Assembly (NCBI RefSeq): GCF_003991425.1
Contig: NZ_CP034346.1
Location: 1,587,501 to 1,651,500, forward strand
Origin: Paenibacillus lutimineralis
GTDB taxonomy: Bacteria; Bacillota; Bacilli; Paenibacillales; Paenibacillaceae
Length of the DNA stretch: 64,000 nucleotides
Direction of reading: 5' to 3'
In this document: positions 50,001 through 64,000 of the stretch, piece after piece
Layout: each line of letters starts with the position of its first letter
Numbering within the stretch: position 1 is the stretch's first letter
Program-made: the position numbers and the translations under genes
The notes under the pieces: model-generated
The model's input: only the letters and a program-made list of their open reading frames with translations
The model's database searches: none
Told to the model about the DNA's origin: nothing

Positions 50001-50425
50001 TTTTCTCGGCAAGGGCGAACAAGCTATATGAGCTGTACCGGAATTTGTCCTCGATCGGACAATTGGATCCCAAGACCAAAAGCCAACTGGAGGAGAAATA
50101 TTTCGGTCGGACGATCACGTCGATCCTTGAGGAGTGTAAGAGGGACATGCCGGCAGAGGAACTGGCTTCATTAAATTCCGATTCGAAGCAGCAGCTCGCA
50201 GCCGTTTTTAAATGGTATATCGAGAATAGCAAGAAATCGGCCATTGCCGGAGAAACAGGTAATAAGGTCAATTACAGCATCATGTGCGGACCTTCGGTTG
50301 GCGCATTCAACCAATGGGTGAAGGGCACGGCGCTCGAAGCCTGGAGAAATCGCAAAGTCGCCATCATTGGCGCCAAATTGATGGAAGAAGCAGCCACTAT
50401 AGTCAGAGGGGAGATCGTCCAATGA
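47018..50425 (+). CDS. Trans-acting acyl hydrolase-acyltransferase-enoylreductase (AH-AT-ER)
   Basis: An 1135-aa three-domain protein. AT1 (1-300) starts FMFSGQGSQ and has elbow GVSLGE (Ser99) where extender ATs have GHSxG; this branch usually acts as an acyl hydrolase in trans-AT systems (PedC-like). AT2 (about 328-615) has FPGQGAQ, GHSLGE (Ser416) and GAFHS, typical of the malonyl-CoA AT that loads all AT-less modules. After a Glu-rich linker, residues about 695-1130 form a PfaD-type FMN enoylreductase (GAAGGIGTPEAAAGVF, FILTGSINQC), which can reduce enoyl intermediates in trans. No ER lies in the assembly line, so any saturated unit would need this domain. The GTG start has GGGAGG 7 nt upstream. 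The stop overlaps the next ATG. Confidence 0.93.
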   Translation: MQDELVFMFSGQGSQYSKMGLELYEANAVFRQTMNQLDESFQALTGASVVAELYLAAKRKGSRFDDIFYSHPAIFMVQYALSQTLIAAGIRPRYVIGVSLGEYVALAVAKVLSPTHVLELIVKQVNLLQETCGKGAMIAILDNCRLYEESAELNGRTELIAVNYDKHFTVACSVKHAKDTQQFLKERNIASLKLPVNYAFHSASIDRLKEPYCDVLRGCEFRLPEISFVSSMMGGPVKQIGESFLWDVLREPMNFQGALKALADGNPKVYLDLGPSGTLENFSKKLLDPAQTRAIKSIITPMGSDMKKLNETIVYCGQLNLTRDGEKAKMKAYLFPGQGAQSVGMGDKLFQEFPEYTAIADRVLGYSIEELCLKNSKKLLDNTAYTQPALYVVNALSYLKHQQESGEAPDYVAGHSLGEYSALFAAEVFDFETGLRIVQKRGELMSTATGGGMAALIGLTEEAIREILAQHRLDRLDVANLNTPTQIALSGLQEDITAAKEIFESSGVSAYVVLNVSGAFHSRYMRDSAIQFKQFLEQFTFKAPKIPVISNLTSRPYTLKNMIHYMTEQMVSSVQWTESVRYLMGKDPEMELLQIGPGHVIAGLVSKIKREAEPLIVEDDAPSEDNFFLEAAAAVELPDIEPILEETATEEEIYAEEIILNEEAVQEAGLEQTEVLEVPANADNPKVLAGEGSPGMQLGSTGFKQRYGLDYAYVLGGMNDGISSQELVTAAGRAGCLAFLGASGMRQVDLEHSIRGIRQALGADGSFGVTVMYHPIHSGREERLIETLLREKVDLVEATSYLTMTPALIKYRILGLSQRPDGTIRTAHRIIAKVSRPDIAKMFMLPPPERIVEKLVASGDITPEQAQLARLVSIADDLCAVGDSAGPTDQANLLSLLPTMIRLRQEIARDFAPARDIHIGAAGGIGTPEAAAGVFLMGAEFILTGSINQCTVESGASAEVKDILEQLNVYDMAYVPSAELFELGGKAQVVKKGLFFSARANKLYELYRNLSSIGQLDPKTKSQLEEKYFGRTITSILEECKRDMPAEELASLNSDSKQQLAAVFKWYIENSKKSAIAGETGNKVNYSIMCGPSVGAFNQWVKGTALEAWRNRKVAIIGAKLMEEAATIVRGEIVQ

Positions 50426-50661
50426 ACAAAGATCAAATTTTTGAAATTATGAGGGAGAAAATGCTAGACATCCTGCCGGACTTGGACGTCCAGCGTGTCA
50501 GCAGAGAAGAGAGCATGAAGGATTTGGGTGCGAACTCCATCGATCGCTTCGATATTATTTCCGACACAATGGGCGAACTGAATTTGAAAATTCCGCTCGT
50601 TAAGTTCGGTAGCCTCAAGAATATTGGAGAGGTAGTAGATTTCTTGTATGAAAACCTCTAG
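50422..50661 (+). CDS. acpK: Free-standing donor ACP of the beta-branching cassette (AcpK-like)
   Basis: A 79-aa acyl carrier protein with the phosphopantetheine site in KDLGANSIDRFD (Ser39). The GANS variant matches AcpK-type donor ACPs, which carry malonyl that becomes acetyl through the decarboxylating KS and is then used by HMGS. It is followed directly by those two genes. ATG overlaps the preceding TGA, and its own 3' end overlaps the next start by 14 nt. An upstream in-frame start at 50284 would lie inside the ER domain and is rejected. Confidence 0.92.
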   Translation: MNKDQIFEIMREKMLDILPDLDVQRVSREESMKDLGANSIDRFDIISDTMGELNLKIPLVKFGSLKNIGEVVDFLYENL

Positions 50662-51952
50662 CAGCGCTTCCTCCTACAGCTTTCGGCATTTCCACCCGGT
50701 CGTTGTCACCGGGATCGGCGTAGCCGGGGCGGCGGCGGTAGGAGCTGCCACATTCGAGCAGGTTTTGCGGGAAGGACGCAGCTCGGTGGGCTATCTGACC
50801 GGGATGGCCTACCCAAACGGAAAACCATTGATTGGCGCGGAGGCGGAGGCCCGGGAGCTTCAGGTGGGATTTCAGAGGTATGCCCCCGGTTTAAGCCGAA
50901 CAGCTGGCAGGCTGTTCAAAATCTCGGGTAAATCGGTTCAAGCGTCGTCCGTGGCCGCCGCTGAAGCATGGCAGCAGGCCGGGCTGGAGGAACGCAGCCT
51001 CAATCATGAGCGGATCGGGATCATCGTCGCGGGGAGCAACATATCGCCAGCGGTCAGCTATTCTGCTTACAAAGAGTACGGGGAGCAGCCTGAGCTGCTC
51101 CATCCCCGTTATGCGCTGAGCTATATGGATACCAATCAAATCGGCGTTCTTAGCGAGATGTTTGGTATCTGTGGAGAAGGAATGACAGTTGGTGGAGCTT
51201 CTGCGAGCGGCAATGCCGCGATTCTAAGAGCGTCGCAGTGGATTCAACTGGGTCTAGTGGATGTGTGCATGGTAGTGGGGGCCATGGCAGATTTGTCGCC
51301 TCTAGAACTGCAGGGATATCTCAATATCGGCGCCTATGGAGGAAGCGGCTTTGAGGGAGCCCCGAAGCAAGCGTGCCGTCCGTTTGACCGGCGGCATGAA
51401 GGCTTTATCTTGGGGCAAACCTCAGCCTGCTTGATTCTGGAATGTGCTAGCAGTGCGGCTGACAGCGGAGCAGAAGTGCTCGCAACTGTGATCGGCGGCG
51501 CAGCGGCGCTAGATGGGCACAGCCTCTCCAATCCCAGCGAAGACGGCCAGGTCCGGACGATGAAGGAGGCGCTCCGCAGGGCGGGGCTACCCACGTCTTC
51601 CATAGATTATATCAATGCTCACGGGACTTCTACGCCACTCGGCGATTTGACTGAGCTTGCCTCCATCCGGCGCGTATTCGGTGAGCATCTCGGACGTGTG
51701 CGGATTAATTCTACCAAAGCACTCACCGGACATTGCCTGTATGCTGCCGGCGTGGTGGAAGCGGCGTCTGTCATCATCCAGATGAAGGGTGGGTTTCTTC
51801 ATCCGCAGATCAATTTGGAGGAGCCGGTCAGCCGGGAACACTATTTTGCCACGCAGAAGGCGGAGGCGGCAGATTTTACATATGCGCTAAGCAATTCATA
51901 CGGTTTTGGGGGTATAAATACTAGCATTATTTTCAAGAAAGGATTGTGCTGA
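50648..51952 (+). CDS. pksF: Decarboxylating ketosynthase (malonyl-AcpK decarboxylase), PksF-like
   Basis: A 434-aa KSII-fold protein. At the nucleophile position the motif is GGASASGN, so the cysteine is replaced by Ser185, while both histidines remain (HGTST and ALTGH). This pattern is typical of the decarboxylase of HMG-synthase cassettes, which turns malonyl-ACP into acetyl-ACP without condensation. It lies between the donor ACP and HMGS genes. The start is the first ATG in frame; its ribosome binding site (GGAGAGG, about 16 nt away) is weak, so expression may depend on coupling to the overlapping ACP gene. Confidence 0.9.
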   Translation: MKTSSSASSYSFRHFHPVVVTGIGVAGAAAVGAATFEQVLREGRSSVGYLTGMAYPNGKPLIGAEAEARELQVGFQRYAPGLSRTAGRLFKISGKSVQASSVAAAEAWQQAGLEERSLNHERIGIIVAGSNISPAVSYSAYKEYGEQPELLHPRYALSYMDTNQIGVLSEMFGICGEGMTVGGASASGNAAILRASQWIQLGLVDVCMVVGAMADLSPLELQGYLNIGAYGGSGFEGAPKQACRPFDRRHEGFILGQTSACLILECASSAADSGAEVLATVIGGAAALDGHSLSNPSEDGQVRTMKEALRRAGLPTSSIDYINAHGTSTPLGDLTELASIRRVFGEHLGRVRINSTKALTGHCLYAAGVVEAASVIIQMKGGFLHPQINLEEPVSREHYFATQKAEAADFTYALSNSYGFGGINTSIIFKKGLC

Positions 51953-53185
51953 ATGCGGACAGGAATTGAAAGCATCAATTTTTACGGTGGCCCAGCGGTC
52001 ATTACAGCACGCAGTATTTTTGAGGGCAGAGGGCTGGATTTAAGTCGGTTCGACAACCTGATGATGGATCGAAAATCGGTGGGGGTGGCGTGTGAGGATG
52101 CTGTAACCAATGGTGTCAATGCCGCCAAGCCGATTATCGATGCCTTGAGCGAGGATGAAAAAAAACGGATCGAACTCGTGATCACGGCAAGTGAATCCGG
52201 GGTTGATTTCGGCAAATCCATCAGTACATATATCCATGATTATCTGGGATTGGGCCGGAACTGCCGCCTATTTGAGTTAAAGCAGGCATGCTATGGAGGT
52301 ACCGCGGGTCTGCATATGGCAGCGTGCTTCGTTGCCTCGAATGTGTCACCGGGAGCCAAAGCGCTGGTGATTGCAACGGATGTCGCCAGAGCAGCTGCCA
52401 AGAGCACTTACGGGGAGCCCTCGCAGGCCGTTGGCGCTATTGCCATGCTGGTTAGCGACAATCCGGAAATTCTGGAGCTGGATTTCGGTGCCACGGGTCA
52501 ATACAGTTACGAGGTTATGGATACCTGTCGACCGCTTCCTGAGATTGAGACGGGTAATCCGGATCTCTCGCTGCTGTCATATCTGGACTGCCTAGAGAAT
52601 TCCTACAAAAATTACAAGCAGAAGGTAGACGGCGTGCATTTTCAGGAAACCTTCGATTATTTGGCATTTCATACCCCTTTCGGAGGGATGGTGAAAGGAG
52701 CGCACCGCAAGCTGATGCATGAGGAGCTGAAGCTCCGAGGGCCAGTCGTCCAGCAGGATTTCGAACAGAGAGTGGCACCTGCCCTCACCTACGGCATGCA
52801 GGTGGGTAATGTATATTCTGCCGCGCTGTACTTAGGTCTGTGCAGCCTAATTGACCATGCGCAGGTTGATGATTACCGTCGGGTTGGATTGTTCTCCTAC
52901 GGATCAGGTTGCTCTTCGGAGTTTTACAGCGGGGTGATCGGGCCGGGGGCGGCGGTCAAATTGAGCCAAATGGACATTGGCGGGCATCTGAACAGCCGCT
53001 ATGAGTTGAGCTTTGACGAATACGAGCAGATTCTTGATCAGAATGTGGAGTGGCTATTCGGCATTCGTGACAAGAAAGTCGATTTCTCCGGCTTCAGCCG
53101 GGTCTACGACCACTTCTTCAAAGGCAAGGGATATCTCGTGCTTTCCGAAGTCGATGACTTCCACCGGAAATACGTATGGAGTTGA
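51953..53185 (+). CDS. pksG: Polyketide HMG-synthase (beta-branching), PksG-like
   Basis: A 410-aa HMG-CoA synthase family protein with the full catalytic set: Glu81 in ASESG, Cys113 in KQACYGG and His240 in AFHTPFGG. It should add the acetyl carbanion from the donor ACP to the beta-keto group of the PKS-bound chain, probably on the tandem ACPs split between the 592-7011 and 7008-9206 proteins. The start codon directly follows the previous TGA. The 3' end overlaps the ECH1 gene by 10 nt. Confidence 0.94.
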   Translation: MRTGIESINFYGGPAVITARSIFEGRGLDLSRFDNLMMDRKSVGVACEDAVTNGVNAAKPIIDALSEDEKKRIELVITASESGVDFGKSISTYIHDYLGLGRNCRLFELKQACYGGTAGLHMAACFVASNVSPGAKALVIATDVARAAAKSTYGEPSQAVGAIAMLVSDNPEILELDFGATGQYSYEVMDTCRPLPEIETGNPDLSLLSYLDCLENSYKNYKQKVDGVHFQETFDYLAFHTPFGGMVKGAHRKLMHEELKLRGPVVQQDFEQRVAPALTYGMQVGNVYSAALYLGLCSLIDHAQVDDYRRVGLFSYGSGCSSEFYSGVIGPGAAVKLSQMDIGGHLNSRYELSFDEYEQILDQNVEWLFGIRDKKVDFSGFSRVYDHFFKGKGYLVLSEVDDFHRKYVWS

Positions 53186-53970
53186 CCGAAATCGGAACCT
53201 ATTGCTGCCTGGGTGTAGGCCATGTGTTTGAAGGTATCTACAGTATTCGGCTTAGCCGCCCTGAGGACAAAAACAGCCTTACCGCACGGCTTGTGTCCGA
53301 GCTACTGCATGCTTTGGACGCCCTCGAACGGTTAGAAGATTGCAAGATGGTTGTGCTTGAAGGAGCAGGGGGATATTTCTGTACAGGAATGAACCTTCAA
53401 GCTTTCGAGGATAGAAGTGCGGACGGAAAAGATTATTCTACGCCCGAATCGCCTCAATTCATGTTTGTGATGAAAACCATCGCCGGGATGTCCAAGTTCG
53501 TCATTGGCAAGGTAGACGGGCAAGCCTTGGCCGGAGGGGTTGGTCTAGCGGCGGCCTGCGATTATGTAATCGCAACCCCCCGTTCTACGTTCGCGCTGCC
53601 GGAAGCTATCTGGGGACTTGTTCCCGCGCTGATCAGCCCTTATCTGATCCGAAGAATTGGCTACTGGCAGGCATATCAAATGACCCTGACTACATTACCG
53701 TTAGACGCGGAAGAAGCGCTGAAATGCCGGTTAGCGGACGAGGTGACGGCGGACCCCGATGCAGCGATTATGAAACTGTACCGAAGGGTTAGTCGCGTCT
53801 CTTCCCGAACTATGCGGGAAATCAAACAATATTTCAAGCAGATGTGGATCATCAACGAAGCGATGGAGAATGCCGCTATTGAAGAAATCGATAAGTTGAC
53901 TGCATCGCACGAGGTCAGGGAGTCGATTCAGAACTATGTACGCTACAAGCGGTTTCCCTGGGAGAAATGA
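53176..53970 (+). CDS. pksH: Enoyl-CoA hydratase-like dehydratase ECH1, PksH-like
   Basis: A 264-aa crotonase-fold protein. FCTGMNLQ and GQALAGGVGLA form the oxyanion-hole loops, and LPEAIWGLVPA carries the Glu region typical of PksH-type dehydratases. It should dehydrate the HMG-ACP intermediate to 3-methylglutaconyl-ACP. It differs clearly from the PksI-like ECH2 fused into the PKS. It overlaps the HMGS gene by 10 nt. With this gene the four-gene cassette (donor ACP, decarboxylase, HMGS, ECH1) is complete apart from ECH2. Confidence 0.92.
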   Translation: MELTEIGTYCCLGVGHVFEGIYSIRLSRPEDKNSLTARLVSELLHALDALERLEDCKMVVLEGAGGYFCTGMNLQAFEDRSADGKDYSTPESPQFMFVMKTIAGMSKFVIGKVDGQALAGGVGLAAACDYVIATPRSTFALPEAIWGLVPALISPYLIRRIGYWQAYQMTLTTLPLDAEEALKCRLADEVTADPDAAIMKLYRRVSRVSSRTMREIKQYFKQMWIINEAMENAAIEEIDKLTASHEVRESIQNYVRYKRFPWEK

Positions 53971-53983
53971 GGTTAGTCAGAGC

Positions 53984-54778
53984 ATGATCCAGAATGATTT
54001 TGCGAACCGCTATCCCGATTATTGGTCGCAAGGGGTATGGATTATCCCGCTTCAACTGGAAGGGACAAGTCCGCCGGCTTCTCTCAACCTAAGCGTCGTT
54101 GCTTTGCCGTCGGAATCAGTTGCTACCGATTTTTTAAGCTTGGTGGAGCAGGAGGAATATTCTCGCTTTCAATATCCGCGCCGTCGCAACAGCTATTTGT
54201 TGGGGAAGCTGGCGGCCAAATTGGCGCTTGCCAGGGGTGATGATGAGCTGTCTGCGATTGCAGTTGACCACGGAATTTTAAATCAGCCCATCGCATCCGG
54301 CAGATCCAGCAAGGTCACGGTTACGCATAGCGATACATTGGGTGCGGCGCTTGCTTATGACCAGCGGCTGCTTGCCGGCATCGATCTTGAACTCATCAAC
54401 GAGCAAGCGAGAGACGCTATGCTCAGGATTACTTCGGCGGAAGAGGAAGGACTTGTCAGGCGGCTTGGAACGGATATTGCGCCAACCGCGTTTCTTACCA
54501 TACTCTGGACGGCAAAGGAAGCGATTTCTAAGGTGCTGCAAACCGGATTCACGGTGGCCATGGAACTGTTCGAGGTAAAGTCGCTGGAGCGAAATAAATA
54601 CGGGGTTGTGGGGAGCTTTCGTCATTTTCCACAGCTCGTATCCGTCTCCGTTGTGCGTGAAGACTACGTATTCAGTATGGTGCTGCCCGCAAAGGCGTTA
54701 GCCGAAGGCGAGGAGTTCCGAATACTTGAACTTATGCATAACAGGCTCCCGGTCTGTTCAATCATCACAGTGGATTAG
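53984..54778 (+). CDS. Sfp-type 4'-phosphopantetheinyl transferase
   Basis: A 264-aa protein with both hallmark motifs, GIDLELI near residue 132 (Mg-binding acidic pair) and WTAKEAISK near 188. It activates ACP domains by adding phosphopantetheine from CoA to the conserved serine. The window contains 11 PKS ACPs plus two free ACPs that need this. An in-frame ATG at 53936 lies inside the ECH1 gene; I prefer 53984, which follows the stop and has GAGG 11 nt upstream. It closes the beta-branching part of the operon; a 56-nt gap follows. Confidence 0.93.
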   Translation: MIQNDFANRYPDYWSQGVWIIPLQLEGTSPPASLNLSVVALPSESVATDFLSLVEQEEYSRFQYPRRRNSYLLGKLAAKLALARGDDELSAIAVDHGILNQPIASGRSSKVTVTHSDTLGAALAYDQRLLAGIDLELINEQARDAMLRITSAEEEGLVRRLGTDIAPTAFLTILWTAKEAISKVLQTGFTVAMELFEVKSLERNKYGVVGSFRHFPQLVSVSVVREDYVFSMVLPAKALAEGEEFRILELMHNRLPVCSIITVD

Positions 54779-54834: not shown

Positions 54835-55347
54835 ATGAAAACATTGGTGCTTTATACGAGTGTCTATGGAAGTACGCAGCAATATGCGGAGTGGATTGCT
54901 CAGGAGCTTGACGCGGTTATCGGCGATATCAACAAATTCGATATGGCTCAGTTAGACGGGTATGACACCATTATTCTCGGAACCTATGTGCGGGTGGGCA
55001 AGCTGGTCGCCGGTGATTACCTGAAGAAAATCTGGCCTCGTATCCAGAATAAAAAAGTTGTTCTCTTTTCGGTCTCCAAGACGCCGGTGAATAGCGAGGC
55101 TACCTTTAAAAACTATCGGAAAAGCGTTCCCGAGAAAATCCGCGCTGCGATTCAGTATTTTCCGCTGGAGGGACGCTTTGTATTCAACGAGCTGGTGGAT
55201 AAGGACAAGACTACGATGCGCATCGGCCAGAAAATGACACGCATCTTCATGGGCAAGGCCATGGCGGAAGAAATGGTGCGGGATTGTGACGATGTGCGTT
55301 CCGAGAATCTCCAGCCGCTGTTCGCTGCGTTGCGAAGCATTTCTTGA
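54835..55347 (+). CDS. Flavodoxin-fold protein (HemG-like)
   Basis: A 170-aa single-domain flavodoxin fold. The N-terminus TLVLYTSVYGSTQQYA carries the FMN phosphate-binding T-x-Y-G-S-T pattern, and LGTYVRVGKL and LFSVSKTP are the following loops of the menaquinone-dependent protoporphyrinogen oxidase / flavodoxin family. It likely shuttles electrons or reduces a quinone-like partner. It precedes the two ETF genes and stands in one run with an acyl-CoA-dehydrogenase-like gene, so a shared redox chain is plausible. Strong AGGAGG precedes the ATG. Whether it belongs to the biosynthesis or is a passenger cannot be told from sequence. Confidence 0.8.
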   Translation: MKTLVLYTSVYGSTQQYAEWIAQELDAVIGDINKFDMAQLDGYDTIILGTYVRVGKLVAGDYLKKIWPRIQNKKVVLFSVSKTPVNSEATFKNYRKSVPEKIRAAIQYFPLEGRFVFNELVDKDKTTMRIGQKMTRIFMGKAMAEEMVRDCDDVRSENLQPLFAALRSIS

Positions 55348-55378
55348 TTCCGTCAAAGTTGCGAAAGGAGGGATTGGG

Positions 55379-56152
55379 ATGCGGATTGCTGTATGCGTCA
55401 AGCAGGTGAACCTTCCCCGCGAAGGCGCCGCTTTGAATCCGGCTGACCGTTTTGCGCTTGAAGAGGCGTTGCGTATCCGTGATGCGCAGGGTGGTGAAGT
55501 TACCGTCGTTAGCATGGGGGCAGATCCAGCGGCCAGAGTACTCCGGAGCTGTATCGCGCTGGGAGCGGATGAAGGCCTGCTTTTGTCGGATAAAACATTT
55601 GCGGGTGGGGACACGATGGCCACGGCCACCGTGCTCGCCCAAGGATTGATGGAGAAGATAAAACCGCTGCTGGTGATCTGTGGCAGCCATTCCGTCGACG
55701 GGGAGACAGGGCAGGTTGGCCCGGCGCTTGCTGATAAGCTGGATTATCCCCATACAACTCATGTATCTGAAATTCTGAGACTAGATGAACAGTGCATTCG
55801 CTGCAGGCGAATCACCGAAGATGGAGAAGAAATCGTAGAACTGCTGCTTCCAGCTTTGATAACGGTACACCATGGGATGAATCAGCCTCGCATGGCTACA
55901 GTCAAGGGGATACTCCGGGCTAACCAAAGTGGCATTCGACGTTTGAACGCCGCTGATCTCAAGTTGATGCCCGGAAGCTGCGGCCTTGCCGGATCTCCTA
56001 CCCGCGTAACACGCACGGTCCAAGCCGTTGCATCCATGCATAACCCATTTGAGGTGGGCGGTGACGATATGGAGGGTCAGATTGAGGCTGTCGTCGCTTT
56101 GCTGCTTCGACAGAACCAAATAGATGAAAGGAAACAACCGCTCCATTCATAA
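55379..56152 (+). CDS. etfB: Electron transfer flavoprotein, beta subunit
   Basis: A 257-aa ETF beta-type protein beginning MRIAVCVKQV, with GGEVTVVSMG, AGGDTMATA and the C-terminal stretch MNQPRMATVKGI. With ETF alpha it forms a heterodimer that takes electrons from acyl-CoA dehydrogenases. AAAGGAGGG lies just before the ATG. A possible upstream start at 55286 lies inside the flavodoxin gene and is rejected. The ETF-alpha gene follows after 18 nt, and a candidate electron donor (acyl-CoA dehydrogenase-like) is at 61301-62455. Confidence 0.9.
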   Translation: MRIAVCVKQVNLPREGAALNPADRFALEEALRIRDAQGGEVTVVSMGADPAARVLRSCIALGADEGLLLSDKTFAGGDTMATATVLAQGLMEKIKPLLVICGSHSVDGETGQVGPALADKLDYPHTTHVSEILRLDEQCIRCRRITEDGEEIVELLLPALITVHHGMNQPRMATVKGILRANQSGIRRLNAADLKLMPGSCGLAGSPTRVTRTVQAVASMHNPFEVGGDDMEGQIEAVVALLLRQNQIDERKQPLHS

Positions 56153-56170
56153 GGGAGGAAGGAGAACGAA

Positions 56171-57196
56171 ATGACGGAAGAGCAGGATCATAGCAACGTC
56201 GGCGGAATTATGATTATCGCGGAGTGCGGGCCAGCCGGCCCGAAGCCTGTGTTGTACGAGTTGCTTGGAGCGGCCTGCGGGTTGAATGCGAAGCTTATGG
56301 GTATCATCTCAGTGGCGCTCATCGGAAGCGGCTGCGGTGGATACAGCAGCAGCTGCATTCACCATGGCGCTCATCAGGTTTTTTTAATTGACCATCCTGG
56401 GCTTTGGCCGCTCAACGAAGAAGTATATACCGGACTGCTGCATGAGCTTGTCGTGGACTTAGAGCCCGAAATTGTGCTTATGCCTTCTACCATACATAGT
56501 AAATCGATTGCTGCCCGGCTTGCATCGCGGCTGGGTACAGGCTTGACCGCAGAGTGCACGAATCTGGATATTGACCTGCCGGAGCGGACACTATTGCAAA
56601 TTCGACCTGCCCGAGAGTGTTCATTGATGGCTACTGTGATCTGCCCGCAAGCCCGACCGCAGATGGCGACCGTCCGTCCCGGTGCCTTGCGGTCCAGCAT
56701 CCCTGATTTCCAGCGGAGTGGTATTGTCGTCCACCGTCCTGTCCTGTTTCCTGTGGACTTGCGTACCACCGTCCTTGAAACGTTGGCCGATAGGGCCGCA
56801 CGGCACTCATTCGGCGAAGGCGGCATTATTGTGGCGGCAGGACGGGGAATTGGAGGAAAGAACGGGTTGGAGCTAGTGCGGGAGCTATCGGATGTCTTGG
56901 GAGCAGATATTGGGGCTACCCGTCCGGTCGTGGATATGGGCTGGCTGGACGGTTCCAAGCAAATAGGGCTTACTGGCAAGCATGTTAAGGGCAAGATTTA
57001 CTTTGCCGTCGGTATATCCGGAGCCATTCAGCACACGGTGGGCATACGGGGGATGGATACCATTATCGCTGTGAATCCAGACAAGGATGCGCCGATTTTC
57101 AAGGAAGCGCATTATGGCATCGCGACCGATATGTTTACCGCCCTGCCGCTGTTGATTGATAAAGTAAAACAAACCATGAAGGTAAGCAGGTGGTGA
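56171..57196 (+). CDS. etfA: Electron transfer flavoprotein, alpha subunit
   Basis: A 341-aa ETF alpha. The C-terminal FAD domain shows GLTGKHVKGKIYFAVGISGA, a nearby HTVGIRGMD and AVNPDKDAPIF, the classical alpha-subunit signature. With the beta subunit it would carry electrons from the dehydrogenase encoded downstream, either to a quinone oxidoreductase or perhaps to the flavodoxin at 54835. GGGAGGAAGGAG precedes the ATG. A dedicated ETF pair inside a PKS cluster is unusual in my knowledge. Confidence 0.92.
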   Translation: MTEEQDHSNVGGIMIIAECGPAGPKPVLYELLGAACGLNAKLMGIISVALIGSGCGGYSSSCIHHGAHQVFLIDHPGLWPLNEEVYTGLLHELVVDLEPEIVLMPSTIHSKSIAARLASRLGTGLTAECTNLDIDLPERTLLQIRPARECSLMATVICPQARPQMATVRPGALRSSIPDFQRSGIVVHRPVLFPVDLRTTVLETLADRAARHSFGEGGIIVAAGRGIGGKNGLELVRELSDVLGADIGATRPVVDMGWLDGSKQIGLTGKHVKGKIYFAVGISGAIQHTVGIRGMDTIIAVNPDKDAPIFKEAHYGIATDMFTALPLLIDKVKQTMKVSRW

Positions 57197-57200
57197 GAAA

Positions 57201-57470
57201 ATGGAAGAAACAATAAGCTTTCTGCAGTTTCAGAGCATTTTTGCGGAGTATCTGGGGATTGATTCTTCCCGGCTTACCCGGGAGGTTAATCTGTTGCTTG
57301 AGCTGGGGGTGGATTCGTTGTCCCTGGTCAATGCGATGATTAGGTTGGAGCGGGAATATCAGGTCATGTTCAAACCGGAGGATGCCATCATGACTCGCAC
57401 CCTGGGTGAAGCCTATGATTTATTCGTCAATTACCGCAGCCAGGGGGAAGAAATTCAGAGCGGTATTTAA
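57201..57470 (+). CDS. Second free-standing acyl/peptidyl carrier protein
   Basis: An 89-aa carrier protein with Ser39 in LGVDSLSL, close in length to PltL-type carriers. It differs from the AcpK-like ACP at 50422, so it should serve another pathway. It starts 4 nt after ETF alpha and is followed by a KASIII-like gene. The logical partners are the adenylating enzyme at 62448 (loading) and the dehydrogenase at 61301 (oxidation on the carrier); this pairing is inference. Confidence 0.9.
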   Translation: MEETISFLQFQSIFAEYLGIDSSRLTREVNLLLELGVDSLSLVNAMIRLEREYQVMFKPEDAIMTRTLGEAYDLFVNYRSQGEEIQSGI

Positions 57471-57495
57471 TTGTCTGTTAAGGAGGCTTGTTTTC

Positions 57496-58569
57496 ATGTT
57501 GAATTTGTCTATTCGTTCCTTATCCTATGCGGTTCCTAGCGGACGCCTGACCAATGGGGAAATTGTAGATTTGTTTGCAGAAAAGTATTTCCGCAATCTG
57601 CCAAAGGATGATCTTGAACAACTGGTGTATGGCAGCAAGCGGAAGCTGGATTTCCTGGAAATTCGCACGCGTTCCTACTCACTGGATTACGCCGAAGAGG
57701 GCTCTGTCCAAATGGCTGCGAGGGTATCTCGGGAAGCGATTGCAAAGGCTGGGATGACGCCGGACGATATTGATCTCCTGCTTTTTGTCGGCGTGTGCAA
57801 CCCGTTCCGGGAGCCTTCCTATTCGATTATTCTGGCTCATGAACTAGGGATGACGCAGGGTAACTACTACGATATCAACGATACTTGTAACGGATTTTTG
57901 AAAGCGTTGGAGTTGTCCAGCCTATATATAAATTCCGGCAAATACCGCAACATTCTTGTGGTGACAAGCGAGAATCCTTTGGAGCTGCTGGAAGCCTCGA
58001 ACTTTACGGGCAGAGTGGATACGCTTGCGGAAGCAGATTACAAAATGAACCTGTTCTTCGCTGGAGCAGGCGCAGCGGCGATGCTGCTAACTGCGGACAG
58101 CGGGGAGAAATCGGCGCTTTACTACGGGGAAGAACGAAATCACGCAGACTGGGAGTTGTCGCTATACGTCTCTCCAAAAATCCATATGCCTACGCCTCGA
58201 TTCGAAGGAATGGACTTTATGAGCTGGGCGGACGGCAGAGGCATCGCAGCGCATGTGATTCGTGATATGCCAGCGTTTGTGCACCGCTTTCTGGATGAGC
58301 ACGAGATTGTGAAAGATGAGATTCGGTATATTTTTTCGCATCAATTGGGTCGCAATATCACGAACTCGCTGCTGAACAAGCTGGAAGTACGCACCGAAAG
58401 GGTCTTTCCGGTCAACACCTTTCCCGATTACGGGAATATGGGCAGCGCCAACATTCCTATCGGCCTGTGTATGGCGGAAGAGCAAGGACTGCTATGCAAA
58501 GGCGATTCCATTCTTCTGCTGGGCAGCGCCTGCGGCTTGACTTACGGAGCGGCTTATATCCTATGGTAA
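57496..58569 (+). CDS. KASIII/FabH-like ketosynthase or acyltransferase
   Basis: A 357-aa thiolase-fold protein with the intact KASIII triad: Cys131 (NDTCNGF), His282 (FSHQLGRN) and Asn314 (YGNMGSANI). It could prime by Claisen condensation with malonyl-ACP or act as a trans-acylase. KASIII-like proteins such as CloN2 move pyrrolyl groups between carriers in aminocoumarin pathways, a relevant precedent given the prolyl-type genes nearby. The start is ATG 57496 with AGGAGG 9 nt upstream; an earlier in-frame ATG at 57406 lies inside the ACP gene and is rejected. Confidence 0.88.
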   Translation: MLNLSIRSLSYAVPSGRLTNGEIVDLFAEKYFRNLPKDDLEQLVYGSKRKLDFLEIRTRSYSLDYAEEGSVQMAARVSREAIAKAGMTPDDIDLLLFVGVCNPFREPSYSIILAHELGMTQGNYYDINDTCNGFLKALELSSLYINSGKYRNILVVTSENPLELLEASNFTGRVDTLAEADYKMNLFFAGAGAAAMLLTADSGEKSALYYGEERNHADWELSLYVSPKIHMPTPRFEGMDFMSWADGRGIAAHVIRDMPAFVHRFLDEHEIVKDEIRYIFSHQLGRNITNSLLNKLEVRTERVFPVNTFPDYGNMGSANIPIGLCMAEEQGLLCKGDSILLLGSACGLTYGAAYILW

Positions 58570-58585
58570 TGCGAGGAGGAGAGCG

Positions 58586-59626
58586 ATGTTGACAGAGAGG
58601 AAGTTTCCAGTACCCAAGCTGATTGTGAAGGAGCAGTTGGACAAAGAAATCATCCGCAGGAAAGTGGCGTACGGCAACTACACCTGTATGGACAAAATCG
58701 TGCCCATGATTCGGGCACGGGGCACCAATCTGCAAGTTGATGAATCGGGCGACCTGCGTATCATTGGCTGGCAGCGCGATATTACGCGCATGCGCAAGCA
58801 GGATGTCTCCCTTTCTTTTATGATCCATTTGACGGTAAGCCCGGAAGGCATGATCAAGGAGGCGCTCGTGGACGATATGTTCAACGGCGGCAAGGGTGTG
58901 CTCTGTTCCAAGGACTACCTGGAATCAAAACTGAAGGAAGAGCTGGAGGGCCAGTTGTTTGACCGAAGGCTGGTTTCGCGGCTACGTTTCGACAAGTTCA
59001 AGTGCTTTCATATATTCGAAATTATGAGTGGTATCTACAGCTCCTATTTCATGTACAAGAACGAGCTGCAGGAAGGCAGCACCGAACGGCTTTTTTACGA
59101 AGAGGATATCGTCGATATCTACGCCTCTGAAGGCAATCTCTACCTTGCAGGGCTACAGGAATTTAAGGGAAAAGAGCCTGTTTCCTATATGGTTGTGCTG
59201 TATGATGTGTTCAACAATATTACCTTCGATGAAGATGGTTATATGAAGCTCAAGTCGCCAGTCCAAGCTGAATTTTATTTAAACGACGTGCTGGTTCACA
59301 GCAACGAGCTGTACCAGAAGGAGAAGGATTATATTTTTATACGGGTGCAAAAGTTCCTGTTCGTATGCGTCGAAAAACTGAAGGTTTCGTTGTTTCCAGA
59401 ATTTACTGACAAAATGATGAATACCAATTTGGCGCCGAGCGCATTTATCGGCATCATTATGCAGGCCATCGGTATCCGATCCTTTGCGAACAATTTCAAC
59501 TATATTCAATATATTATGACGGCTATGCAGCGTCCCCGCAAAATGCCGGGCTGCATCGGCGCGATCCTGAATGAGGAAGAAGCTGCGTGCCATTTCGAAG
59601 GCTTTGATTTATCTTATTTGAATTGA
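58586..59626 (+). CDS. Protein of unknown function
   Basis: A 346-aa protein I do not recognise. It has no signal peptide, no membrane segment and no motif of a nucleotide-binding, SAM or metal enzyme that I can see. The N-terminal third is basic (MDKIVPMIRARG, RDITRMRKQ), the middle rich in Tyr, Phe and acidic residues, the end ordinary globular sequence (QRPRKMPGCIGAIL, HFEGFDLSYLN). It is tightly placed between the KASIII-like gene (16 nt) and the acyl ligase (21 nt), with its own GAGGAGG site, so it is very likely co-expressed and translated. It might act on a carrier-bound intermediate of the same block; that is only a contextual guess. Confidence 0.75.
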   Translation: MLTERKFPVPKLIVKEQLDKEIIRRKVAYGNYTCMDKIVPMIRARGTNLQVDESGDLRIIGWQRDITRMRKQDVSLSFMIHLTVSPEGMIKEALVDDMFNGGKGVLCSKDYLESKLKEELEGQLFDRRLVSRLRFDKFKCFHIFEIMSGIYSSYFMYKNELQEGSTERLFYEEDIVDIYASEGNLYLAGLQEFKGKEPVSYMVVLYDVFNNITFDEDGYMKLKSPVQAEFYLNDVLVHSNELYQKEKDYIFIRVQKFLFVCVEKLKVSLFPEFTDKMMNTNLAPSAFIGIIMQAIGIRSFANNFNYIQYIMTAMQRPRKMPGCIGAILNEEEAACHFEGFDLSYLN

Positions 59627-59647
59627 GGAAGGAGCTTCGATCAACGG

Positions 59648-61276
59648 ATGATTGAATATAAGCAATTAACGATCGACTGTGTTTTGGATACCCTGCGGGA
59701 GGATTATCCCGATAAAGCAGCAGTTGTGTTTGAGCATGAATCGGTAACTTTTGCCCAGCTTCACAGGGTTTCGGTCACCATAGCCGCAAATCTACTGGAT
59801 ATGGGCGTGAAGAAGAATGATAAGGTGGCTGTGCTTCTGCCCAACAGCCTGGAATACCTCTATGTCTACTTCGCGTTGTTTAAGATCGGAGCCTGGATTG
59901 TTCCAATCAGCACCCGATATGAGCCGGATGAAATCCGTAGAATCCTTACGGACTCCGATGCAGAGACGGTCATTTATCAGGATGCGCTGGGTATATTCAA
60001 TTATGATGAAATCCTCTTGTCTGAACTGAAGCACGCTCTGCCGCAAATGAGGAATTATATTATGCTTGGCGAAGGGACTCTGACCGGCAGCTCGCCGTTT
60101 GCAGAGCTGCTGAAGCCTGCTTCGGTTCCGCTGGACGAACGAATCCTCGAACCAATTGACCCCGAAGATATCGCCATTCTGGGATACACCTCCGGCACTA
60201 CGGGACATCCCAAAGGCGTTATGATCTCTCATCGGAATCTGGTGGAAACCTCCTATTACGGCGGCAAGCTACTGGATATACAGGACGACATTGGCTTTTC
60301 CATCGCCCCATTGTATGCAGCGCAAGGCTTCAACGCCGTGCTTGTCTATTTCGTCTCTTGCATTACTATGAAATGGATTTCCAATTTTAATCCGAATGAT
60401 ATTTTAAGCCATGTCGCTAAAAACGGGATCAATCTCTTCCATACCCAACCTACGATGTGGAGCTTGATCCTGGCGATGCCTTATTGCAAGCCCGGTCTGT
60501 TCAAAGACCTGCGCAAGGTGGTGGTGTCAGGCTCCTTGTGTACGCCGTTTCTAGCCAATAAGATCGAGGAAATGACGCGCTGCACACTGATCAATGCTTA
60601 TGGCATTATCGAAGCGACAGGTCTGGTCACGATGACTCGACTGGATGATCCACCAGATGTAAGGCTGAACACCGTGGGCAGGCCGATTGACGGCTTCGAG
60701 GTGAAGATTGTGGATAAGGAGCGCAAGGAACTTCCTAAAGGGGAAATTGGCGAGCTGGCTATCAAAGGCTTTCTGATGAAGGGATATTACAAAAATGAAG
60801 AAAAAACCCGTGAAGTGATCGATGAGGACGGCTGGTTGTATACCGGGGATCTAGCCTGTTACTACGAGGATGGGGTAAACCTGTGCATTGTCGGGAGAAT
60901 CAAAGACATGGTGATCCGGGGTGGCTTCAACGTGTATCCAGTGGACATTGAGGAGTGTGTTCTGAATTTCGACAAGGTGGAGGATATTTCTGTGGTGGGG
61001 CAGCCCGACGAGATTCTGGGCGAATCCTTGACGGCCTTCGTGATCCCGAAGCCGGGCGAACTGCTCAGCGAAGGGGAGATCAAAGCCTGGTGCCGTGGCA
61101 AAATCGCTAACTATAAGGTACCCGATCGCGTGCATATGGTCTCTCAGTTTCCCGTGCTGGAATCCGGAAAGGTACAGAAAAATATTCTCCGGGAGTGGGC
61201 GGTGGAAGGCATCCCCGCAGAAAGCCAGTTTCTGCTCAACGACCGGATTGTGAAAGGAATGGCCGGACAGCTATAA
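59648..61276 (+). CDS. Acyl-CoA/ACP ligase (class I adenylate-forming enzyme)
   Basis: A 542-aa stand-alone ANL-family ligase. Core motifs: YTSGTTGHPKG near residue 180 (ATP loop), NAYGIIEATG, YTGDLA, GRIKDMVIRGGFNVYP (hinge) and a C-terminal SGKVQKNILRE with the catalytic Lys. The overall look is that of acyl-CoA synthetases rather than amino-acid A domains, so a carboxylic acid is the likely substrate, activated for CoA or for an ACP such as the one at 57201. It is separate from the amino-acid-type adenylating enzyme at 62448. The substrate is unknown. Confidence 0.88.
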   Translation: MIEYKQLTIDCVLDTLREDYPDKAAVVFEHESVTFAQLHRVSVTIAANLLDMGVKKNDKVAVLLPNSLEYLYVYFALFKIGAWIVPISTRYEPDEIRRILTDSDAETVIYQDALGIFNYDEILLSELKHALPQMRNYIMLGEGTLTGSSPFAELLKPASVPLDERILEPIDPEDIAILGYTSGTTGHPKGVMISHRNLVETSYYGGKLLDIQDDIGFSIAPLYAAQGFNAVLVYFVSCITMKWISNFNPNDILSHVAKNGINLFHTQPTMWSLILAMPYCKPGLFKDLRKVVVSGSLCTPFLANKIEEMTRCTLINAYGIIEATGLVTMTRLDDPPDVRLNTVGRPIDGFEVKIVDKERKELPKGEIGELAIKGFLMKGYYKNEEKTREVIDEDGWLYTGDLACYYEDGVNLCIVGRIKDMVIRGGFNVYPVDIEECVLNFDKVEDISVVGQPDEILGESLTAFVIPKPGELLSEGEIKAWCRGKIANYKVPDRVHMVSQFPVLESGKVQKNILREWAVEGIPAESQFLLNDRIVKGMAGQL

Positions 61277-61300
61277 ATTCGGACATTGGAGGGGCTAATT

Positions 61301-62455
61301 GTGGATTTCAGCTTAACTGAGGACCAAAAGCAAATTTGCGATTTAATGGAAGAGCTGAGCTTGCGGTATTTGAATGTCGGCGTGTATACAGACGATAAAC
61401 ACGCTTCCTTCCGCCGGGACAAGTGGGCCAAAATTGCGGAGACCGGCCTGCTGGGTCTTCCCTTTCCGGAAGCCTGTGGCGGAGCGGATCAAGGTATGCT
61501 GACCACCGCGCTGGCCATCCGCACGCTGGCACAGAAATGCCAGGACGAAGGGCTGGTCTTCTCCGTGTGCGCCCAAATGTCTGCGCTTCAGGTTCCACTT
61601 TGGCAGTATGGAACCGTGGAGCAGCACAATAAGTTCTTGGCGCCACTTATAGACGGCCGTTACATCGGTAGCAGCGTGATTTCGGAGCCGGGTGCTGGAT
61701 CGGATTCGGCTGCACTATCAACGCTTATCCGCAAAACGGCGGACGGCTATGAGCTGCACGGTATTAAAACCTTTGCCACGCTGGCACCCGAAGCGGATTG
61801 CCTGCTGGTCTACGGGAAACACCCGGGAGGTATTCCGGCGCTTGATGTTTCTGCTTTTATTCTGGAAAAGGAAGGCCAGGAATTTGAAATAGGCCAAATT
61901 TTCGAAAAGATGGGACTGCGGACGAGCCCGATGAGCGAAGTTATTCTGAACTGCACCTCGGTGCCGCCCGAGCGGCTGGTTGGGAGAGAACGGCAGGGGA
62001 TGAGTGTTTTTTTTAAAGCGATGCTGTGGGAACGGATTATGGTTGCTGCCTACCATGTCGGGGCGATGGAGCAGCAGTATGAGGAGGTCTACAAATATGC
62101 CTGCGAAAGGAAGCAGTTCGGACAACGGTTGCTCGACTTTGAAGGAGTATACGGCAAGCTGGTGAATATGCGGCTGCGGCTGGAGACCAGTCGACTGATG
62201 CTGTTCAAGACCTGTGATGATTTCGATCGGGGCTTCCAGGAGATGCACCGCGCTTCCATGCTCAAGCTGCACACCTCAGAATCTAAGGTTCAGAACAGCC
62301 TGGAGGCAGTGCAAATTTTTGGGGCATACGGTTATGTAAAGGAGAGCGCGGTGGAGAAGCAAATCCGCGACTCGCTGGCTGCAAAAATTTATTCCGGCAC
62401 GAGTGAAATGCAGAAGAAGATCATGCTTGAAGGACTGGGTGAACTGTATGGTTGA
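61301..62455 (+). CDS. Acyl-CoA dehydrogenase-like flavoenzyme (candidate prolyl-ACP dehydrogenase)
   Basis: A 384-aa full-length acyl-CoA dehydrogenase: N-terminal helical domain (VDFSLTEDQ), SEPGAGSDSAA and GIKTFATLAPEAD in the middle barrel, then the C-terminal helical domain with ERKQFGQ, FGAYGY and IYSGTSEMQ. The catalytic Glu of SCAD/MCAD (IYEGTS) is Ser365 here. A Glu at 244 (MLWERIM) occupies the place used by isovaleryl-CoA dehydrogenase. From memory, an IYSGTSE motif also occurs in PltE-like prolyl-carrier dehydrogenases. Neighbours support that: an ACP, an amino-acid adenylating enzyme overlapping by 8 nt, and ETF as acceptor. I prefer GTG 61301 (GGAGGGG 6 nt upstream) over TTG 61286. 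Confidence 0.88.
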   Translation: MDFSLTEDQKQICDLMEELSLRYLNVGVYTDDKHASFRRDKWAKIAETGLLGLPFPEACGGADQGMLTTALAIRTLAQKCQDEGLVFSVCAQMSALQVPLWQYGTVEQHNKFLAPLIDGRYIGSSVISEPGAGSDSAALSTLIRKTADGYELHGIKTFATLAPEADCLLVYGKHPGGIPALDVSAFILEKEGQEFEIGQIFEKMGLRTSPMSEVILNCTSVPPERLVGRERQGMSVFFKAMLWERIMVAAYHVGAMEQQYEEVYKYACERKQFGQRLLDFEGVYGKLVNMRLRLETSRLMLFKTCDDFDRGFQEMHRASMLKLHTSESKVQNSLEAVQIFGAYGYVKESAVEKQIRDSLAAKIYSGTSEMQKKIMLEGLGELYG

Positions 62456-64000
62456 TTTCCTGCTGCAGCATGATCTGCTGCGCAGCGCTGGCCGTGGTCC
62501 AGAGCAGACGGCACTCCGCTATATGGGCCGGAATATGAGCTATCGAGTGCTTCTGGAGAAGAGCCTTCTTCTCTCTGACGCGATGATCGTGTTGGGCATT
62601 CAGCCCGGGGAGACCGCTGCCCTCTGTTTGGAAAAATCGCCGCAGGCGGTAATCGCCATGTATGCAATGCTATTTTCCGGAGGAGTCTATATTCCGCTGG
62701 ACACGGCTTATTCCCCTGTACATCGAGTCTTGACCATTGTGGAACAGAGTGGCACGCGTTTTCTGCTTACCACTTCGTCCACACTGGAAAAATTGTGGAA
62801 TGGTGCAGAAGAACGGCACCGGCAGATGCTTAAAGGGCTCCACATTCTTGTGCTTGAGCAGGACGAAGCAAGGAGGGAGGGGGACGACTCCGCTTGTATA
62901 ACGATGGAGCTAGAGGGAGTCAATCACCATCGACCTCAAGCCGGTCAGTCTCCGCGCTACTTATACCGAAGCCGTAAGGAAGTTGTGAGTGACGATGTCG
63001 CTTATATTCTTTACACCTCCGGCTCAACGGGGATACCCAAAGGGGTAATGATCACCCACTTGAACGCCAGAACCTTTATCGAATGGTGCCATGCGTACTT
63101 CAAGCCGGAGCCGCAGGATATTTTTGCTTCTATTGCTCCTTTTCACTTCGATTTGTCAGTCTTCGATCTCTTCGTGCCGCTATCCATCGGGGCGTCGCTG
63201 GTGATCCTTCCAACGGATGTTGTCCAAAATCCTGGACGTTTCACCGCTGCCGTCAAGGAAGAAGAGATCAATTGGGTGTATTCGGTGCCATCCCTGTGGA
63301 CAGGCGTGATTAAGTACGCCAGATTGGCGCCGGGCGAGCTTACCTCGCTTCGCAAGGTGTTGTTCGCGGGGGAGGTTTTTCAGCCGAAATACTTGAGAAC
63401 TGCCATGGAGCTGCTGCCGAATGCCTCCTTTTACAATCTGTATGGATTAATTGAAACCAATGTCTGCACTTGTTATGAGGTAAGCCGGGCCGAAGCGGCG
63501 TGCGAGCAGCCTCTGCCGATCGGTTACGCCTGCGCGAATACCGAGGTTGTTGCTTTGAATGAGGATGGGCGTATAGCCATTGCAGGAGAAGAAGGCGAGC
63601 TGTGCGTAAGGGGTTCGATTGTGATGAAAGGCTATTATCGCAACCGTGCGCTAACCGCCGCAAGCTTTGTTGAACATCCCTCCTTTCCGGAAACCGGAAT
63701 CATGCTGTACCGCACTGGCGATATCGTCAGAATCAACAACGAAGGAGCCCTTGTCCTGATCGGCCGCAAGGATTTTCTTGTCAAGCGCTCCGGATTTCGG
63801 ATAGAGCTGCCCGAAATTGAACGGGTACTCCATGGCATGGAGGAAGTTGCGGCTGCTGCCGTTATGGATATCCGCGGGAAGGACGGCGAGGTGCTGCTAT
63901 GCACCGCGTTGGTGCCAAAGCAGCAGGGCCGGCTTACGGTGCTTGGAGTCAAACAGGTTGTTGGGACGATCCTGCCCCATTACATGATTCCGGATCTGGT
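62448..64000 (+). CDS. Amino-acid adenylating enzyme (A domain), 3' partial
   Basis: 517 residues before the right edge, frame open throughout. A-domain motifs: YILYTSGSTGIPKGV (A3), FHFDLSVFDL (A4), NLYGLIETN (A5), YRTGDIV (A7) and GRKDFLVKRSGFRIEL (A8). Reading the ten specificity positions by eye against PheA gives D-L-F-S-L-A-L-V-C, plus the expected Lys. It resembles, as I recall, the prolyl-AMP ligases of the PltF/RedM type (DLLYLALVCK) more than modular NRPS proline codes. Asp235 for the amino group is present. It probably loads an amino acid, perhaps proline, onto the ACP at 57201. The start ATG overlaps the dehydrogenase stop by 8 nt. Whether more domains follow is not visible. Confidence 0.85.
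   Translation, partial: MVDFLLQHDLLRSAGRGPEQTALRYMGRNMSYRVLLEKSLLLSDAMIVLGIQPGETAALCLEKSPQAVIAMYAMLFSGGVYIPLDTAYSPVHRVLTIVEQSGTRFLLTTSSTLEKLWNGAEERHRQMLKGLHILVLEQDEARREGDDSACITMELEGVNHHRPQAGQSPRYLYRSRKEVVSDDVAYILYTSGSTGIPKGVMITHLNARTFIEWCHAYFKPEPQDIFASIAPFHFDLSVFDLFVPLSIGASLVILPTDVVQNPGRFTAAVKEEEINWVYSVPSLWTGVIKYARLAPGELTSLRKVLFAGEVFQPKYLRTAMELLPNASFYNLYGLIETNVCTCYEVSRAEAACEQPLPIGYACANTEVVALNEDGRIAIAGEEGELCVRGSIVMKGYYRNRALTAASFVEHPSFPETGIMLYRTGDIVRINNEGALVLIGRKDFLVKRSGFRIELPEIERVLHGMEEVAAAAVMDIRGKDGEVLLCTALVPKQQGRLTVLGVKQVVGTILPHYMIPDL

Follow-up and report, generated by a model that had tools for sequence, protein, structure and literature searches.

The 64,000-nt window analysed here spans positions 1587501-1651500 of one 6.5 Mb contig of Paenibacillus lutimineralis. 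The genes at the downstream end of the window, together with those that follow, form what we read as a cassette that oxidises proline and has a low-oxygen electron chain of its own, lying beside a trans-acyltransferase polyketide synthase (trans-AT PKS). We put the probability of this reading at roughly 0.6. It is carried by the gene set, by the proline code of a free adenylation (A) domain, by the class of a dehydrogenase and its glutamate, by the type of an adjacent electron transfer flavoprotein (ETF), by six genomes in which ETF and dehydrogenase occur together as sole copies, and by the recurrence of a core of the cassette across phyla. A preliminary description of this DNA had singled out nine of the genes, and these are indeed present as nine closely packed open reading frames (ORFs) of the + strand, each in the family given below (Pfam/NCBIfam). 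The run extends beyond the window end to about position 68614 and takes in three further genes. In window numbering, which is used throughout, the cassette comprises the following (ACP, acyl carrier protein; PCP, peptidyl carrier protein; ACAD, acyl-CoA dehydrogenase; KASIII, ketoacyl-ACP synthase III; SAM, S-adenosylmethionine):

54835..55347, + strand: flavodoxin of the Flavodoxin_5 type, 170 aa, first gene of the redox block (PF12724, 67.6 bits)
55376..56152, + strand: ETF beta, bifurcating-type (PF01012; the start codon at 55376 is our choice)
56171..57196, + strand: ETF alpha (PF00766/PF01012), with a GISGAIQH motif
57201..57470, + strand: free ACP, here ACP1 (PF00550), with a DSL motif
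57496..58569, + strand: KASIII-like condensing enzyme (PF08541/PF08545; the start codon at 57496 is our choice, and searches ran from 57490 on)
58586..59626, + strand: 346-aa cassette protein without known family (no Pfam/NCBIfam match)
59648..61276, + strand: acyl (AMP-forming) ligase (PF00501/PF13193)
61301..62455, + strand: predicted prolyl-carrier-protein dehydrogenase of the ACAD family (PDB matches, tree, residues)
62448..64085 (the window ends at 64000), + strand: free A domain predicted to use proline, 545 aa (ORF, code DLFYLALVCK)
64114-64380: second free ACP, here ACP2, assigned by its position directly after the A-domain gene
64377-67211 (L003:577-3411): A-PCP-BtrH-like protein, its C-terminal region resembling BtrH_N (PF14399, 28.9 bits, just below the cut-off of 29.7)
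67208-68614: HemN-like radical SAM enzyme (profile and PDB match)

In the route that we propose, the free A domain would load proline onto ACP2, and the dehydrogenase, whose stop codon is overlapped by the start of the A-domain ORF by 8 bases, would oxidise the carrier-bound ring to a pyrroline (two electrons) or a pyrrole (four electrons). The electrons would pass to the cluster's bifurcating-type ETF (55376-57196), working with the adjacent flavodoxin. KASIII would use the oxidised acyl group to form a carbon-carbon bond on ACP1, and the acyl ligase, the 346-aa protein and the HemN-like radical SAM enzyme would complete the unit. We infer the direction of electron flow, the ACP that carries proline, the KASIII and radical SAM steps and the product.

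The same twelve genes, from flavodoxin to radical SAM enzyme, stand in identical order in all seven other Paenibacillaceae loci fetched, which makes the cassette more than a chance assembly. Two pairs of loci, L006 with L042 and L007 with L044, have contigs of equal length (273697 and 320611, respectively) and were treated as the same, so that the distinct Paenibacillaceae loci number eight including the window. Among the 394 genomes of the family, which fall into 19 genera, the 346-aa protein used as marker occurs in eight from two genera (the host genome and seven of another genus), and for the two cassette proteins searched the nearest named relatives are from Paenibacillus. A pattern-based scan of one genome per species, covering 84,980 species, returned 14 loci; it missed Clostridium felsineum, the source of a close dehydrogenase relative, and the 14 loci are thus part of what exists. 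A core of eight genes (ACP1, KASIII, 346-aa protein, ligase, dehydrogenase, A domain, radical SAM enzyme and ACP2) is found in a Spirochaetales metagenome-assembled genome (MAG; L008), a Proteobacteria MAG (L009) and Anaerobacterium chartisolvens (L010). The short contig of a Bacillota MAG (L011) carries five of the eight, with the ligase partial and the 346-aa protein on another contig of that genome. The radical SAM enzyme is a member of this conserved core; in the eight loci L012 (an Arenicellales MAG) to L019, three of which stop close to the match (L012, L013 and L018), no radical SAM relative was found at E 1e-5. The core is rare. With the C. felsineum dehydrogenase as query, only the host's own among 398 genomes sampled from the phylum passed E 1e-80, and the 346-aa protein is present in 2 of 58 genomes of Anaerobacterium's order. 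In Anaerobacterium, two PKS ORFs follow the core and are followed in turn by an ETF pair, about 20 kb from the dehydrogenase and 46% (ETF beta) and 41% (ETF alpha) identical to that of the window.

Three loci from Bacteroidia/Bacteroidetes (L016, L017 and L019) combine a prolyl-type dehydrogenase with proline-like codes and KASIII-like hits, with no radical SAM relative at E 1e-5, and possibly represent an undescribed pyrrole pathway. Beside the core, L010:8543-9931 and L011:197-1571 begin, by eye, like FkbH-type HAD proteins and are followed by an extra ACP, which would suggest a glycerate-derived extender unit. Two further ORFs near the core, L008:14413-15351 and L010:6064-6969, look alike by eye.

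The substrate of the cassette is indicated by the free A domain. Its ten specificity positions, set by the PheA scheme, read DLFYLALVCK, a code shared by 16 of the 19 A domains from loci with a prolyl-type dehydrogenase (not all of them direct neighbours of the dehydrogenase; L042 and L044 were excluded as equal to L006 and L007). The three exceptions are DLHYLALVCK (L013), DLLYLALVCK (L019) and DNFFVGVICK (L012). The solved L-proline--[L-prolyl-carrier protein] ligase 7thn_B, which we take to be PigI, has D, L, F, Y, I, A, W, V, C and a C-terminal Lys at these positions, as read by eye from a printed alignment with the A domain of L014, and eight of the ten letters agree with the window's code. 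When the window A domain was compared with the PDB by whole-sequence score, the multi-domain LgrA and one other peptide synthetase ranked top, and 6o6e (PltF) was the highest-ranked stand-alone ligase; the family searches used the first 517 of the 545 residues. In PMC11253843, PltF (6O6E) and PigI are tabulated as L-Pro enzymes. The strings DLFYLALVCK and DLLYLALVCK, or nine-letter forms of them, were not found in the literature text searched. From its code, the free A domain very likely activates proline, as the preliminary description had proposed in likening it to PltF-type prolyl ligases; the code did not point to another amino acid.

The dehydrogenase is equally telling. Its top match in the PDB is the prolyl-ACP dehydrogenase 4irn, presumably AnaB (E 8.7e-72), and its second is the L-prolyl-PCP dehydrogenase 5zw0, presumably PltE (E 9.6e-65), with acyl-CoA dehydrogenases ranking after. 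At two positions to which we ascribe catalytic roles, the AnaB/PltE glutamate and the base of medium-chain acyl-CoA dehydrogenase (MCAD), the window enzyme has Glu244 and Ser365, respectively. In the alignment, the glutamate at the AnaB/PltE position is present in 17/17 prolyl-type rows and 0/5 other ACAD rows, and where MCAD has its base, 16 of the 17 prolyl-type rows have Ser (L012 has Ala) and 4 of the 5 others have Glu; these counts omit the misassigned ORF G633_1841k, and the five others differ between residue count and tree. In the tree, which has 22 rows (with G633_1841k corrected, the long row L061_other dropped and L018 not included), the 17 prolyl-type rows are split from five other ACADs with support of 100/99. 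The window enzyme lies in a group of nine rows (100/100) with two from Paenibacillus and those of C. felsineum, L008, L009, L010, L011 and L012, and the tree does not settle the branching order of this group, AnaB and PltE within the 17. The placement suggested as a check in the preliminary description thus came out on the side of AnaB and PltE, apart from the other ACADs, and a grouping with the dehydrogenases of fatty acid metabolism did not occur. Judged by its sequence, the assignment as a prolyl-carrier dehydrogenase of the AnaB/PltE side holds, and the enzyme very likely oxidises proline on its carrier.

What sets the cassette apart is the ETF that precedes these genes. For ETF beta the nearest PDB chains are 6fah_B (CarD), 4kpu_B, 5ol2_B, 7qh2_B (LctB) and 7koe_A, and for ETF alpha the nearest is 6fah_A (CarE). 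The five best chains of each subunit come from 6fah (CarCDE), 5ol2 (C. difficile), 4kpu (A. fermentans), 7qh2 (Lct) and 7koe (T. maritima, as we take it), and all five rank ahead of 1efv and 1efp, presumably the mitochondrial and Paracoccus ETFs. Among NCBIfam models, ETF alpha scores best with AcrA (225.4 of 600) and ETF beta with NF040731, a general ETF beta model, followed by AcrB (149.6 of 475), all below cut-off. The GISGAIQH motif of ETF alpha is presumably its FAD site; the subunit is without the N-terminal ferredoxin-type cysteines that the 403-aa ETF alpha of Anaerobacterium has. The ETFs of C. difficile, A. fermentans and A. woodii are named as bifurcating in PMC12630350, which also describes a beta-subunit glycine (Gly123 in A. 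fermentans) as invariant in bifurcating ETFs, whereas canonical ETFs tend to bulkier residues. The equivalent glycine is kept in the window, in 8/8 distinct Paenibacillaceae cluster ETF beta proteins and in that of Anaerobacterium.

Gene content ties this ETF to the dehydrogenase. In six of the seven other Paenibacillaceae cassette genomes, the cluster's ETF alpha is the sole ETF alpha found, and in the same six the cluster's dehydrogenase is the sole PF02770 ACAD found; coordinates were compared with the fetched loci, and the genomes are listed as 99-100% complete. Many genomes of the family do without ETF alpha altogether (PF00766 was found in 223 of 394). With one dehydrogenase and one ETF per genome, adjoining in the cluster, the two therefore very probably function together, and the ETF is the likely electron acceptor of the dehydrogenase. 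The adjacent flavodoxin would fit as its low-potential partner. An ETF-quinone oxidoreductase was considered as electron sink and rejected, as the domain PF05187 had no match at E <= 0.001 in the host genome. The preliminary description had wired the oxidation to the ETF, and elimination in six of seven genomes bears this out; as an account based on the ETF alone it is incomplete, given the bifurcating type of the ETF, the flavodoxin and the HemN-like enzyme of the core.

As to the carriers, ACP1 adjoins KASIII in the Paenibacillaceae and in L008, L009 and L010 (the contig of L011 stops short of KASIII), which makes it the likely partner of this enzyme. ACP2 directly follows the A gene, and small ACP genes likewise follow the A/radical SAM genes in L008, L009, L010 and L011. 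Because of these positions, ACP1 is probably not the proline acceptor, a role that the preliminary description had given to the ACP at 57201; by position, ACP2 is the likely one. In BLAST, the window ACP2 matches its counterparts in L011 (32% over 60, E 0.001) and L008 (27% over 49, E 0.003). The ACP2 of L009 was matched by the ACP1 query alone (E 0.005), and that of L010 was read from a frame. ACP2 in the distant loci is therefore identified by position and size, plus alignment for L008, L009 and L011, and is the weakest call of the core.

The Cys-His-Asn triad of KASIII is intact in all five sequences compared (window, L006, L008, L009 and L010), and the FabH subfamily models score below their NCBIfam cut-offs (PRK09352, 135.4 of 249; TIGR00747, 125 of 292.1). 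The triad favours condensation as the predicted activity, and we give about even odds to a condensation on ACP1. Of the two roles offered earlier for this enzyme, extension of the product is thus compatible with its active site, whereas plain transfer is less favoured by the triad. The acyl ligase is 47-58% identical in L008, L009 and L010. The 346-aa protein is in the cassette at every neighbourhood read, namely the eight of Paenibacillaceae, L008, L009 and L010, and a further search beyond Pfam and NCBIfam gave one-member hits only. Among 1179 candidates drawn from 5.8 billion, 17 proteins, itself included, were retrieved at E<=0.001, a list that omits relatives near 34% identity such as that of L008. 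Its AlphaFold2 model has a pLDDT of 88 and gave no telling fold match.

The radical SAM enzyme matches the HemN structure 1olt over nearly its full length (E 9.6e-71) and has the CX3CX2CXC motif; it scores 309.9 with the HemN equivalog model TIGR00538, for which the cut-off is 324.95. The host genome contains no match above the HemN cut-off. Because of its location in the cassette, and because no gene of its own genome exceeds that cut-off, it is unlikely to be the housekeeping HemN. Further ring oxidation, oxidative decarboxylation and transfer of a SAM-derived carbon are all possible reactions. The preceding A-PCP-BtrH-like protein (64377-67211) has a second A domain with the code DLYNFSLVWK, and its Anaerobacterium counterpart reads DILQMGMVWK, which we take to be Cys-like and Gly-like codes, respectively. 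Because this A-domain code varies, the module was excluded from the core.

The cassette lies in a trans-AT PKS cluster whose proteins PKS1 to PKS8 all carry ketosynthase motifs by motif scan. Its neighbouring genes include:

-16281 to -13933 (L005:3719-6067): IOR alpha/beta (indolepyruvate:ferredoxin oxidoreductase; TIGR03336, 681.5 bits, cut-off 650.9)
-13943, upstream of the window: start of PKS1 (ORF and motif scan)
43518-46142: carrier protein-hydrolase-methyltransferase protein (family search)
47018-53970: free-standing acyltransferase, ACP, ketosynthase, HMG-CoA synthase and enoyl-CoA hydratase (read from translations)
53936..54778, + strand: phosphopantetheinyl transferase (PF01648), just upstream of the cassette, which could in principle prime the free ACPs

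The preliminary description had seen the cassette as a starter pathway. In such a scheme, the free ACP would hand oxidised proline to the ketosynthase at the head of PKS1, and PKS1 does open directly with a ketosynthase, the motif scan revealing no loading domain at its start. According to PMC6053186, anatoxin is made in this way. However, the IOR pair overlaps the PKS1 start by 11 bases, adjoins PKS1 in the seven other cassette genomes as well, and includes the sole IOR alpha above cut-off in each of the eight genomes. The IOR family makes acyl-CoA and reduced ferredoxin, and so conserved and dedicated a pair suggests a starter acyl-CoA derived from a 2-oxo acid. Moreover, the core also occurs in L008 and L009 with no PKS in view: the 15.5 kb and 21 kb fetched, respectively, held no match to the ketosynthase and acyltransferase queries and no PKS-sized ORF. 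We consider the use of the proline unit as PKS starter possible but rather doubtful. The IOR is a possible rival source of the starter and may also supply low-potential electrons. The proline unit may enter elsewhere or end in a separate small molecule.

How the electrons would leave the cassette is a separate matter. Amine oxidation of the prolyl-carrier kind is presumably too positive in potential for NAD+ alone. Because of this argument, together with the ETF type, the flavodoxin and the analogy to Ldh-EtfAB, we consider flavin-based electron confurcation possible, though less likely than not: the dehydrogenase-ETF pair would oxidise prolyl-ACP with NAD+ while consuming reduced flavodoxin, much as Ldh-EtfAB does for lactate (PMC9232219), and the IOR would supply reduced carrier. 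If so, the formation of pyrroline or pyrrole units would be open to anaerobes and facultative bacteria in the absence of oxygen, and the dehydrogenase-ETF pair and the HemN-like radical SAM enzyme would draw on one common low-potential pool.

Alternatively, the dehydrogenase could be an ordinary O2-using prolyl-carrier oxidase, the ETF and flavodoxin then serving the radical SAM enzyme or the IOR as source or sink of low-potential electrons. The anatoxin enzyme is titled a prolyl-ACP oxidase in a paper cited by PMC6053186. A HemN-like radical SAM enzyme in the core, an IOR dedicated to the cluster and the lack of an ETF in the fetched flanks of three of the four non-Paenibacillaceae loci would agree with this explanation, and the host, as a member of its genus, can probably grow with oxygen. 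Against it stand the pairing of sole ETF alpha and sole ACAD in six of seven genomes and the closeness of this ETF to those of acyl-CoA or lactate dehydrogenase complexes, and the core comes with an ETF in the same cluster in Anaerobacterium, presumably a strict anaerobe. We therefore regard it as unlikely. A dehydrogenase run in reverse, as an ene/imine reductase fed by NADH via the bifurcating ETF in the manner of acryloyl-CoA or caffeyl-CoA reductase, would be in keeping with the AcrA, NF040731 and AcrB scores (all below cut-off), the CarD/CarE matches and the reduction of crotonyl-CoA by a bifurcating ETF with butyryl-CoA dehydrogenase (PMC12630350), but is highly improbable given that the enzyme groups with AnaB and PltE, has their glutamate, is without the MCAD-type base and adjoins a proline-coded A domain in the core loci read.

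Several observations weigh against a proline-oxidation cassette with its own electron chain. The NCBIfam models ranking top for the dehydrogenase, PigA and RedW, stay below cut-off (340.9 of 500 and 269.4 of 650), and L012, although in the nine-row dehydrogenase group, has a nearby A domain with the non-proline code DNFFVGVICK. The ACP2 proteins of the distant loci show only weak similarity to that of the window, which matches ACP1 of L008 nearly as well (E 0.004). The glycine test is unspecific, since 18 of 21 rows from window and loci have the glycine, including ETFs outside such clusters. Extra ETF and ACAD genes are carried by the host genome and by G633, the seventh of the other cassette genomes, and Anaerobacterium has three ETF alpha. 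Finally, no ETF was found in the fetched flanks of L008, L009 and L011, and the linkage of core and ETF is seen in one of the four non-Paenibacillaceae loci, there some 20 kb off with two PKS ORFs between.

Elsewhere in the neighbourhood, the gene of a metallo-beta-lactamase-fold protein (46284-46961) separates the last PKS gene from that of the acyltransferase. Downstream of the cassette, L003:5072-9625 encodes a response regulator, a histidine kinase and an ABC transporter pair, which, as read from the translations, together resemble a sensing/resistance module for peptide antibiotics. Promoter and terminator scans gave no more signals than in shuffles.

Carrier-bound pyrrole and pyrroline units are known mainly from aerobes, in which the dehydrogenase can pass its electrons to oxygen. 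A cassette conserved in bacteria of facultative and of anaerobic habit, and joined in the Paenibacillaceae by a bifurcating-type ETF dedicated to it, would offer a testable answer to how carrier-bound oxidation may proceed free of oxygen. It would moreover connect natural-product biosynthesis with electron bifurcation, which has so far belonged to energy metabolism. The eight-gene core with its radical SAM enzyme and family-less protein would also mark a small-molecule product that can be sought directly.

Prolyl-carrier dehydrogenases, proline ligases, KASIII enzymes and bifurcating ETFs are all known kinds of proteins; for their conserved union with a HemN-like enzyme and a family-less protein we found no description in the titles and abstract starts of the top-ranked records, a search of mostly open literature that is not proof of absence. 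In the CloN1-CloN7/CouN pyrrole transfer of aminocoumarins, a KASIII-like enzyme acts between two carriers, the CloN2 type moving pyrrolyl from PCP to ACP with no condensation; in contrast, the window KASIII has the full Cys-His-Asn triad, which favours condensation over plain acyl transfer. PltE/PltF/PltL and PigA/PigI/PigG, which make the pyrrolyl-PCP of pyoluteorin and prodigiosin, follow the same logic of three proteins, and PigA is the best NCBIfam model for our dehydrogenase; the PigA and RedW cut-offs are not reached, however, and the ligase 7thn differs at two of ten code positions. These two systems are not known to have a dedicated ETF. AnaB/AnaC/AnaD of anatoxin, which convert prolyl-ACP to the pyrroline, form the same trio of free proline ligase, free ACP and ACAD-type dehydrogenase, and share with the window an A gene followed by a small ACP gene. 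The ring there goes to a PKS, and the pathway passage of PMC6053186 mentions neither an ETF or flavodoxin nor a KASIII or radical SAM enzyme. HemN, the oxygen-independent coproporphyrinogen III oxidase, resembles the radical SAM enzyme over nearly its full length, but the latter scores below the HemN cut-off and lies in a biosynthetic core. The bifurcating EtfAB complexes CarCDE, EtfAB-Bcd and LctBCD are what the window ETF subunits match first, with the beta glycine kept and a flavodoxin adjoining; whereas those complexes serve enzymes of energy metabolism, the predicted partner here is a prolyl-carrier dehydrogenase in a biosynthetic cluster.

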